DNA from: Halanaerobium saccharolyticum
Lineage (GTDB): Bacteria; Bacillota; Halanaerobiia; Halanaerobiales; Halanaerobiaceae
NCBI RefSeq assembly: GCF_004362045.1
Contig: NZ_SNWX01000020.1
Location: forward strand, 1-54,368
Length of the DNA: 54,368 nt
Direction: 5' to 3'
The notes beneath the pieces were generated by a model. It ran no database searches. It worked only from the letters and a program-made list of their open reading frames with translations, and was not told where the DNA came from. Within the stretch, counting starts at the first letter, position 1. Each line of letters begins with the position of its first letter. Positions 52,248-54,368 of this stretch are shown here, piece after piece. The position numbers were made by a program, and so were the translations under genes.

Positions 52248-52275
52248 TTGACAATGAATATTATTTCTGTATAAT
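52248..52275 (+). promoter_or_regulatory. promoter of small gene 1
   Basis: TTGACA (52248-52253), 16-bp spacer, TATAAT (52270-52275): both boxes perfect. Same architecture as the promoter at 53714. Confidence 0.85.
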
Positions 52276-52297
52276 AACAGTATAACAATTATAAGAA

Positions 52298-52337
52298 AAT
52301 CACTTATAAGTAAAAAAGACTATAAGAAAGGGTGATT
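52298..52337 (+). promoter_or_regulatory. leader hairpin covering the ribosome site of small gene 1
   Basis: AATCACTT (52298-52305) can pair with GGGTGATT (52330-52337), which is the 3' part of the Shine-Dalgarno sequence AGAAAGGGTGAT. Two of the eight pairs are T-G. The same arrangement recurs before small genes 2 and 3. Confidence 0.55.
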
Positions 52338-52341
52338 AATA

Positions 52342-52467
52342 ATGTTTGAAAAAGTAAAAAGATTTTTTAATGAGGTAAATTCTGAGGGACAGAGAATAGA
52401 AAACAACCTTAGAGAAGTCAAAGATCAATATCGTAATAATGAAAACAGCAGTTACATGCAGTTTTAG
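52342..52467 (+). CDS. small conserved-looking protein, paralogue 1 of 3 (41 aa)
   Basis: 41 codons, starting MFEKVKRFFNEVNSEGQRIE and ending SSYMQF. Charged and probably one amphipathic helix; no signal peptide or membrane helix. Shares with the 42-aa protein at 53821 the phrase EG-x-RIE-x-N at the same position and a short tail ending in an aromatic residue. Perfect promoter, a good ribosome site and an intrinsic terminator make it a real gene. Function unknown. It lies directly downstream of a heterodimeric ABC exporter but has its own transcript. Confidence 0.8.
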   Translation: MFEKVKRFFNEVNSEGQRIENNLREVKDQYRNNENSSYMQF

Positions 52468-52521
52468 GAAATAAGACTATAATGAATACTACAATTAAAA
52501 ACAATAAACATTATGAGACTT

Positions 52522-52567
52522 AAAAAGAACACTTCCTTTATTATCAAGGGTGTTCTTTTTTTATTTT
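52522..52567 (+). terminator. terminator of small gene 1
   Basis: AAGAACACTTCCTT (from 52525) pairs with AAGGGTGTTCTT (52546-52557), with a bulge or mismatch at the centre, followed by eight T. Confidence 0.85.
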
Positions 52568-52578
52568 AGCTCATTATC

Positions 52579-52607
52579 TTTTAATATGACTGTTAAAGTG
52601 ATATAAT
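52579..52607 (+). promoter_or_regulatory. probable promoter of the aldo/keto reductase gene
   Basis: TATAAT at 52602-52607 with only a weak -35 (TTTTAA, 52579-52584) at 17-bp spacing. Confidence 0.4.
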
Positions 52608-52687
52608 AAATTTAGATAATTTACAACTTAAAATAACTTAAAACCATTTTTATTTATAATATTTCAAAATTCAAGGAGGTAGAAGAA

Positions 52688-53671
52688 ATGAAATATAGGA
52701 AATTAGGTAAAACAGGTTTCGAAGTATCAGAAGTTTCTTTTGGCGGTTGGGCAATTGGCGGTTCCTGGGGAGATGTAGAAGATGAGCAGTCAATGGCAGC
52801 TTTAAGAGAGGCTGTAAAGCAGGGGATCAATTTTTTTGACACTGCTGATGTTTATGGAGATGGTCGCAGTGAGCGTTTAATGGCTAAGTTGAGAAATGAG
52901 ACCGATAAAAAGATACATATAGCCACTAAAGCAGGTAGAAGGCTTGATCCTCATGTAGCTGAGGGTTATAATAAGGAAAATTTAAATAAGTTTGTGGACC
53001 GCAGTCTTAAAAATTTAGATGTAGAAACAATTGATCTGCTGCAGCTGCACTGTCCTCCAACTGAAGTTTATGAGCAGGAGGAAGTATTTGAGGCCTTAGA
53101 AGAAATGGTTAAGGCAGGTAAAATTGAGAACTACGGTGTTAGTGTAGAAAAGGTAGAAGAAGCGATGAAAGCTTTAGAATATGAAAATCTGGCAACTGTT
53201 CAGATTATTTATAATATGTTCCGCCATAAGCCAGGAGACGAATTTTTAGATAAAGCAAAAGAAAAAGGGGTAGGTATTATCTGTAGAGTGCCTCTGGCAA
53301 GTGGATTATTAACAGGTAAGTTTTCTAAAGACTCCACTTTTGCTGAAGATGACCACCGTAATTATAATCGGGATGGAGAAGCTTTTGATAAAGGAGAAAC
53401 TTTCTCCGGTGTAGATTTTGAACTTGGCCTGAAAGCTGTAGATGAGCTGGAAAAAATTAAACCTGAGGGCTTAACAATGGCTCAGTTTGCTCTTAAATGG
53501 ATCCTGATGAATGATGCAGTCAGCTGTGTAATTCCTGGTGGTAAAAAACCGTGGCAGGTAAAAGATAATGCAGCAGCATCTGAAGCAGATGACCTCTCCG
53601 ATGAAGTAATGGCAAGAGTTGACGAAATCTATGATGAATATATCAGAGATAGTGTCCATCACCTCTGGTAA
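52688..53671 (+). CDS. aldo/keto reductase
   Basis: 327 aa, normal length. Catalytic tetrad Asp51, Tyr56 (DTADVYGDG), Lys81 (IATKAG) and His121 (LLQLHCP). The C-terminal NADP-binding part includes SCVIPGGKKPWQVKDN. It reduces aldehydes or ketones, or oxidises sugars, with NAD(P)H in the cytoplasm; the substrate is not evident. CAAGGAGGT precedes ATG. It separates small gene 1 from small genes 2 and 3. Confidence 0.92.
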   Translation: MKYRKLGKTGFEVSEVSFGGWAIGGSWGDVEDEQSMAALREAVKQGINFFDTADVYGDGRSERLMAKLRNETDKKIHIATKAGRRLDPHVAEGYNKENLNKFVDRSLKNLDVETIDLLQLHCPPTEVYEQEEVFEALEEMVKAGKIENYGVSVEKVEEAMKALEYENLATVQIIYNMFRHKPGDEFLDKAKEKGVGIICRVPLASGLLTGKFSKDSTFAEDDHRNYNRDGEAFDKGETFSGVDFELGLKAVDELEKIKPEGLTMAQFALKWILMNDAVSCVIPGGKKPWQVKDNAAASEADDLSDEVMARVDEIYDEYIRDSVHHLW

Positions 53672-53713
53672 AAAGTAAGTAAAAGTCTGTAAATTTAGAC
53701 TTTAATAAAATCC

Positions 53714-53741
53714 TTGACAAGAAGATTAAAAGATGTATAAT
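53714..53741 (+). promoter_or_regulatory. promoter of small gene 2
   Basis: TTGACA (53714-53719), 16-bp spacer, TATAAT (53736-53741), perfect boxes in the same configuration as small gene 1. Confidence 0.85.
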
Positions 53742-53765
53742 GAAGTTAAGATAAGTTATATAAGA

Positions 53766-53816
53766 AAATCACTAATAACTAATTAACAACAATAAGACTA
53801 TAAGAAAGGGTGATTT
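53766..53816 (+). promoter_or_regulatory. leader hairpin covering the ribosome site of small gene 2
   Basis: AAATCACT (53766-53773) can pair with GGTGATTT (53809-53816), overlapping the ribosome site AGAAAGGGTGAT. The flanks TATAAGAAAATCACT and CTATAAGAAAGGGTGATT are shared with small gene 1; the intervening bases differ. Confidence 0.55.
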
Positions 53817-53820
53817 AATA

Positions 53821-53949
53821 ATGTTAAATTCATTATTTACATTCATTAAGAGTGCTAATGCTGAGGGCAGAAGAATCGAAAGTAATATCCAATCTGTAAA
53901 ACAAAAACAGATTGAGCATGATTCTTTTACAAATTTGAATCAGTACTAG
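53821..53949 (+). CDS. small conserved-looking protein, paralogue 2 of 3 (42 aa)
   Basis: 42 codons, starting MLNSLFTFIKSANAEGRRIE and ending TNLNQY. It resembles paralogue 1 in EG-x-RIE-x-N and paralogue 3 in NS-x-F-x-FIK. One amphipathic helix is likely, with no export signal. Own promoter and ribosome site. No terminator is seen before the third copy, so the two may be transcribed together. Function unknown. Confidence 0.8.
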   Translation: MLNSLFTFIKSANAEGRRIESNIQSVKQKQIEHDSFTNLNQY

Positions 53950-53988
53950 AAATCGTTTTATTTAAAAGACAATAATAGAAATATAAGT

Positions 53989-54032
53989 CAATCATATTAT
54001 AACTACAATAACTTTATAAGAAAGGATGATTG
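53989..54032 (+). promoter_or_regulatory. leader hairpin covering the ribosome site of small gene 3
   Basis: CAATCAT (53989-53995) pairs perfectly with ATGATTG (54026-54032). Copies 1 and 2 have C and G at a position where this copy has T and A, so the pairing is kept although the bases changed. Confidence 0.55.
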
Positions 54033-54035
54033 CAG

Positions 54036-54134
54036 ATGTTTAACAGTATGTTTAAATTCATAAAAGAGGCTAAACTTGAATCAAATGAGAATCAAGCAAA
54101 GCTAAATGCATTTAAAAACTTAGGTAACTACTAA
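54036..54134 (+). CDS. small conserved-looking protein, paralogue 3 of 3 (32 aa)
   Basis: 32 codons, starting MFNSMFKFIKEAKLESNENQ and ending KNLGNY. Shortest and most diverged copy: it keeps the N-terminal MxNSxFxFIK block of paralogue 2 and the aromatic end but lacks the RIE phrase. Ribosome site AGAAAGGATGAT. No clear promoter of its own; read-through from small gene 2 is likely. Confidence 0.7.
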   Translation: MFNSMFKFIKEAKLESNENQAKLNAFKNLGNY

Positions 54135-54235
54135 GCTATTTATAAAAGCCGAGCAGGCTAAAATAACAATTAAAGCTAAAAAATAACTAAAACTAATAAG
54201 CAAATAATTATATAACCCTTAAATATAATGATAAT

Positions 54236-54262
54236 AAAACCACCCTCCCCGGGTGGTTTTTC
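54236..54262 (+). terminator. terminator after the small-gene cluster
   Basis: AAAACCACCC (54236-54245) and GGGTGGTTTT (54251-54260), a 10-bp perfect stem with a TCCCC loop. The stretch from 54263 to the right edge holds no gene that I can support. Confidence 0.9.
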
Positions 54263-54368
54263 GTAGTTATGGCCATAGTGTAAAATAAGTTTTGGAGATT
54301 CATTTTGAAATTATCTAGAAAATTAGAAAGAAGACTCCCTTTTTGATAAAATGTTTTTAGGATAAAAA

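Follow-up and report, generated by a model that had tools for sequence, protein, structure and literature searches.

The leaders of the trp operon and related genes of Bacillus that are bound by TRAP contain (G/U)AG triplets separated by spacers of 2-3 nt, lie before tryptophan genes and are read by a multimeric protein. The element recognised by CsrA is GGA in hairpin loops, and CsrB-type RNAs act as sponges. Among the products of small open reading frames (ORFs), leaderless helical peptides form families such as the SpoVM-like, the phenol-soluble-modulin-like and the type I toxin peptides. Annotation overlooks most bacterial proteins of less than 60 aa, and a handle by which such proteins can be grouped is rare; gene regulation in the Halanaerobiia, a class of halophilic anaerobes, is little studied.

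The window, that is the whole stretch of 54,368 nucleotides analysed here (Halanaerobium saccharolyticum, contig NZ_SNWX01000020.1), holds at its right end three ORFs of 41, 42 and 32 codons (copies 1 to 3; Table 1), which exist as a first-pass annotation of this DNA had described them. Upstream of the Shine-Dalgarno (SD) site of such genes, ATAAG/ATAAC elements follow one another every 8-9 nt in an array terminating at the SD. Both the 8-nt period inside the leader and the recurrence of the leader before unrelated tiny genes of the class had been overlooked in the first pass. The arrangement resembles the TRAP-bound leaders in the regular spacing of short RNA repeats within a 5′ leader, which in the case of TRAP are known to have a multimeric reader, but here AUAAG, or ATAA(G/C), is repeated every 8-9 nt before tiny genes and the repeated element is not (G/U)AG. 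With the leaders bound by CsrA or Hfq and with the CsrB-type sponges it shares the presence of several sites near or over the SD in unrelated mRNAs together with a small RNA carrying the same sites; unlike in CsrA targets, the element is not GGA. Hfq was considered as the factor from its distribution and was not singled out, its gene being present in 57 of the 59 class genomes, with arrays or without. The products are shorter than 60 aa, like the helical-peptide families named above, the window family being predicted as one helix and other array-led products having hydrophobic stretches, whereas the window peptides gave no match, or one well below the cut-off, in Pfam, NCBIfam, PHROGs and PDB (the last for copy 2 only). 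No database family covers these peptides or their leader, as the first pass had supposed, and a literature search found nothing on such leader repeats or these small proteins. The placing of one leader array in front of tiny genes of different families, and of one small RNA, points to a common system of control that has not been described.

Table 1. Coordinates of the features in the window, and loci of the small RNA that shares the array
Feature	Position	Strand	Description
Promoter of copy 1	52248..52275	+	TTGACA-16-TATAAT, 12/12 consensus
Copy 1 leader array	52281..52337	+	ATAAC/ATAAG at 52282, 52291, 52306, 52322; SD AAAGGGTGATT; arm AATCAC 52298-52303
Copy 1 gene	52342..52467	+	41-aa ORF, protein MFEKVKRFFNEVNSEGQRIENNLREVKDQYRNNENSSYMQF; relatives in G003, G004, G009, G057, G044
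Terminator after copy 1, probable	52521..52563	+	AAAAGAACACTTCC...AAGGGTGTTCTTTTTTT, read from sequence
Promoter of copies 2-3	53714..53741	+	TTGACA-16-TATAAT, 12/12 consensus
Copy 2 leader array	53751..53815	+	ATAAG/ATAAC at 53751, 53760, 53775, 53792, 53800; SD AAAGGGTGATT; arm AATCAC 53767-53772
Copy 2 gene	53821..53949	+	42-aa ORF, protein MLNSLFTFIKSANAEGRRIESNIQSVKQKQIEHDSFTNLNQY; orthologues 64-79% identical in six genomes
Copy 3 leader array	53982..54031	+	ATAAG/ATAAC at 53983, 53999, 54008, 54016; SD AAAGGATGATT; arm CAATCAT 53989-53995
Copy 3 gene	54036..54134	+	32-aa ORF, protein MFNSMFKFIKEAKLESNENQAKLNAFKNLGNY; present in 10 other Halanaerobium genomes
Terminator after copy 3	54236..54264	+	AAAACCACCC TCCCC GGGTGGTTTTTC; CCACCC/GGGTGG stem
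f7 small RNA loci			L165, L154, L207, L191, L192, L193, L209, L227

The reading frames of copies 1, 2 and 3 are kept in the orthologues of other Halanaerobium genomes, and purifying selection on them supports translation (pooled pN/pS of 0.219, 0.267 and 0.240 over 4, 6 and 6 orthologues, respectively, several of the compared genomes being close relatives and not independent). As judged from their sequences, the three ORFs evolve as proteins, that is, they are genes. Their paralogy is borne out by hhalign, with probabilities of 97.9 between copies 1 and 2 and of 96.1 between copies 2 and 3. Hence the conserved family of translated tiny genes proposed in the first pass finds support in orthologues, selection and profile comparison alike. 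The last residue of each protein is F or Y, in agreement with the aromatic C-terminal residue claimed for each. Of the short motifs said to be shared, the central EG-x-RIE-x-N segment is missing from copy 3. AlphaFold2 predicts copy 2 as one helix spanning residues 2-41 (mean pLDDT 91.5). Amphipathicity of the first 18 residues is clear in copy 1 and its G057 and G044 relatives (p 0.001, 0.002 and 0.0002), weak in copy 2 (p 0.04) and short of significance in copy 3 (p 0.09). The tiny genes recur in most Halanaerobium genomes, and relatives of the copy 1 type extend to Orenia (G057) and to G044, of the same class. They are not always in tandem, copy 3 standing alone in G005, G006 and G010. An aldo/keto reductase gene lies between copies 1 and 2 in the window, and in several genomes with copies 1-3 this gene is flanked by copies and deoD lies beyond. 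A functional tie to the neighbours was considered and rejected, given that G006 has a lone copy 3 between metA and deoD and that the neighbours of the G044 relative differ.

The near-identical TTGACA-16-TATAAT promoters reported for copies 1 and 2 are present, each matching the consensus at every position. The promoter scan as a whole gave no excess, with 11 promoter-like sites against 10.7 in shuffles, and the perfect ones are these two alone. Between copies 2 and 3 the best candidate promoter reaches merely 9/12 and none scores above it; copy 3 is therefore probably co-transcribed with copy 2, and its leader array lies inside the copy 2-3 transcript.

The array departs strongly from random expectation. 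In 19 leaders, chosen only by their last element and SD, ATAA(G/C) is present 57 times in the 60 nt upstream, against 11.2 ± 3.1 in dinucleotide shuffles, and the spacing of 39 elements is a multiple of 8 (or 8+1) nt, compared with 2.5 ± 1.5 elements in the shuffles, none of which had more than 8. Exact triple arrays number 29 in 15 sampled genomes of the class, against 3 for the reversed control. The unit can be written as (T/A)ATAA(G/C)NN, is present as 3-6 near-repeats starting near the predicted transcription start, and adjoins the SD with its last element, whose distance to the −10 box ranges from about 30 to 60 nt. Outside the class, many triple-array matches are simple tandem repeats. 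L291 (G355:C1:2686710-2686786), from a genome of another class, is one long stretch of perfectly tandem ATAAGCCT octamers.

The leader block ATAAGAAAGG(G/A)TGATT, claimed for the three leaders, was found at 52322, 53800 and 54016, and its conserved end is AAGAAAGG(G/A)TGATT. Because it is complementary to the 16S tail of related genomes (GGATCACCTCCTTTCTAAGGA or GGATCACCTCCTTTCT in G006, G007, G025 and G044; the pattern was unmatched in G000), this shared block is mostly an extended SD with a 2-nt gap. The possibility that the whole leader block is an SD extension was rejected, since the 16S tail explains AAGAAAGG..GTGAT and not the upstream ATAAG elements. At the gathering score Rfam returned nothing relevant for the window region and nothing for six array loci; a known riboswitch or leader was likewise discarded, the two weak Rfam matches in the window being to plastid and yeast RNAs and attributable to chance.

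The genes behind the array were surveyed by scanning about 85,000 species genomes with the pattern ATAAN{3,4}ATAAGAAAGGRTGAT, ORF length playing no part in the selection. The scan gave 18 matches in 15 stretches of the Halanaerobiia (Halanaerobium, Orenia, Halanaerobacter and order-level MAGs), all 18 preceding an ORF of 30-57 aa; larger ORFs or none follow in most of the other 72 stretches. Two sequence-only models placed arrays in 20 of 38 genomes of the order and in 37 of 59 of the class. The 56 matches of model R2 with E ≤ 0.001 in these 59 genomes, counted by hand from predicted ORFs without annotation, lie before 42 small ORFs, 7 small-RNA loci and 6 long ORFs, with 1 before nothing clear. 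Since the models were trained on part of their own matches, the 18 of 18 is the cleaner figure. The tiny products, of 28-57 aa, comprise the window family, unrelated families, two of them of hydrophobic peptides, and several singletons. There are 30-aa peptides ending in -WS or -WT, hydrophobic peptides of 28-29 aa of the MRDLLISALMVGIVMIPQLAELYVSKNN type and, at about 50 aa, zinc-ribbon proteins related to Pfam DUF7577 (one at 30.3 bits, cut-off 28), which have nothing but the leader in common with the window genes. Weaker arrays, conserved between species, also precede ordinary genes, namely those of a Cof-type hydrolase, an EamA-type transporter, gpmI and a lipoprotein. The loci of these weaker arrays are L175, L217, L222 and L229; L158, L216 and L228; L143 and L202; and L203 and L215. 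Hence the association of the array with tiny genes is strong yet not exclusive.

Six genera of one related family (f7) share an undescribed non-coding RNA, some 115-150 nt long (model R3), which opens with the same promoter-array start and has no conserved ORF. Its 5′ CCCCTTATAA, which holds the ATAAG array, pairs with a downstream TTATAAGGGG; after this hairpin come a conserved CATTTTTTATCCTCCTTTTT tract (CATTTTTTATCCTCC), which is the complement of an SD with its start codon, and a GC-rich terminator-like hairpin with compensatory changes. The loci gave no Rfam match at the RNA, and a search in Halanaerobium did not find it. The presence of the array where no ORF follows suggests that it is not simply a component of the ribosome site.

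Considering that (i) the array is held tight to the SD, (ii) its distance from the promoter is variable, and (iii) the copy 3 array lies inside a transcript, recognition in the RNA is favoured, and the regular 8-nt period suggests binding by a multimer or in a cooperative manner. We propose, as a tentative reading whose chances fall somewhat short of even, that a class-wide array in RNA is read by a putative multimeric or cooperative factor and jointly controls tiny genes. The three window genes would then be members of a class-wide set encoding very small proteins, the 5′ UTR of which is dominated by the array. The array would act at the RNA level, where the putative factor, which may be a small RNA or a protein, perhaps of the Hfq kind, would read the spaced AUAAG elements near the ribosome site and, whatever the presumed direction of its control, set the translation or the lifetime of the mRNA. 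As an outcome, unrelated tiny proteins would come under joint control, together with a small RNA in one family; in copies 1 and 2 a local pairing between arm and SD may add to the switch. A narrower version, in which a multimeric RNA-binding regulator of the Halanaerobiia reads AUAAG octamer arrays and co-controls unrelated tiny proteins, with the structured small RNA, by its array and its anti-SD/anti-AUG tract, serving as sponge or effector in one family, is rather unlikely. Against the class-wide proposal stand the confinement of the small RNA to one family and its absence from Halanaerobium.

The first-pass annotation had seen in the conserved leader a shared control of expression exerted through masking of the SD; the conservation of the leader stands, and masking as a general mechanism is rejected by the arm survey, the pairing of swapped arms, the accessibility of the SD and the folding. 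The arms AATCAC, AATCAC and CAATCAT are located in the three leaders (Table 1), and in Halanaerobium copies 1 and 2 AATCAC opposite GTGATT is kept in 10 of 10 cases, one of them with a G-U pair, which favours an upstream arm that masks the SD as a translational switch or thermosensor. The relatives in Orenia and G044 lack the arm or show a weak wobble pairing only. Conservation of the arms across relatives does not extend to copy 3, where an aligned 6-bp AATCA(T/C) arm is found in 3 of 11 orthologues (G000, G005 and G008), the ATAA elements being kept in all 11; G006, G010 and G011 are without a 6-bp arm, G001 has only an unrelated A/T match, and overall the arm is lost or shifted in most of them. 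The supposed compensatory change fares no better, as the pair is T-A in G000 and G008, C-G in G005, and broken in G003, G009, G002 and G004. Folds of the three window leaders were no better than those of shuffles (z 0.21, −0.38 and 0.02). Across 45 leaders the SD is about as exposed as in shuffles (mean z −0.28); exposure is slightly reduced in copies 1 and 2 (mean z about −1), with no reduction in the zinc-ribbon or -TWS families. At family level, pairing with the own arm does not exceed pairing with swapped arms (fraction 0.55), although in individual leaders of the zinc-ribbon and hydrophobic-peptide kinds the own arm pairs strongly and specifically (TTAAGCTC/GGGCTTAA, CGTAACC/GGTTACG and AACCTTTT/AAAGGGAGGTT). 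Such pairs are placed at L213 and L211 (zinc-ribbon leaders), L135 and L152, with SD flanks that differ among them, and a local compensatory change is possible there; the pairs may have been added locally. Moreover, AATCAC itself resembles the 16S anti-SD. Masking of the SD as the function of these leaders is thus quite improbable, and the pairing is at best a local feature, with the arms kept in copies 1 and 2.

The array could also work with no dedicated regulator, as an A/U-rich, weakly structured standby site or enhancer that boosts translation of very short ORFs, its period reflecting contacts with the ribosome or with S1. Arrays that end at an extended SD, leaders without a stable fold and the arrays preceding ordinary genes of the clade all agree with this explanation; the last also speak against an array regulon, as they may reflect a looser 5′ UTR habit of A/T-rich genomes. 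However, ATAAG at an 8-nt period is unnecessary for a general enhancer, the f7 small RNA begins with the same array and has no conserved ORF, and few of the best array matches lie before anything but tiny genes, so that we regard such an enhancer as somewhat unlikely. Action in the DNA, through an operator just downstream of the transcription start where a transcription factor tiles direct repeats, would account for the several promoter-proximal leaders in which the array starts at a nearly fixed 6-9 nt past the −10 box, with the last element at 29-33 nt, and for the same promoter-array geometry in the f7 small RNA; this constancy counts against action in the RNA. It is nevertheless quite unlikely: the copy 3 array is without a recognisable promoter, the last elements in the window are about 46 and 58 nt past the −10 box, an 8-bp period does not fit the helical repeat of DNA, and the array abuts the SD.

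If the proposed reading of the array by a factor in the RNA is true, the leader common to unrelated tiny genes would be a sequence-defined handle predicting which tiny ORFs are co-expressed, giving an address for new ones and an RNA bait for the regulator. It would also be a hint that this class of halophilic anaerobes has its own layer of translation control.

At the 3′ side of the genes, the probable terminator of copy 1 was not returned by the terminator scan, the loop limit of which is 8. The symmetrical stem of the copy 3 terminator was scored on the minus strand, and the T run follows on the plus strand. Beyond it, the contig end (54273-54300) carries a repeat of 27-28 bp that is also present in contigs C19, C39, C41 and C55, for the most part close to their ends. 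This repeat probably marks the border of an insertion sequence at which the assembly was interrupted. Where it stands here, relatives have deoD following copy 3.
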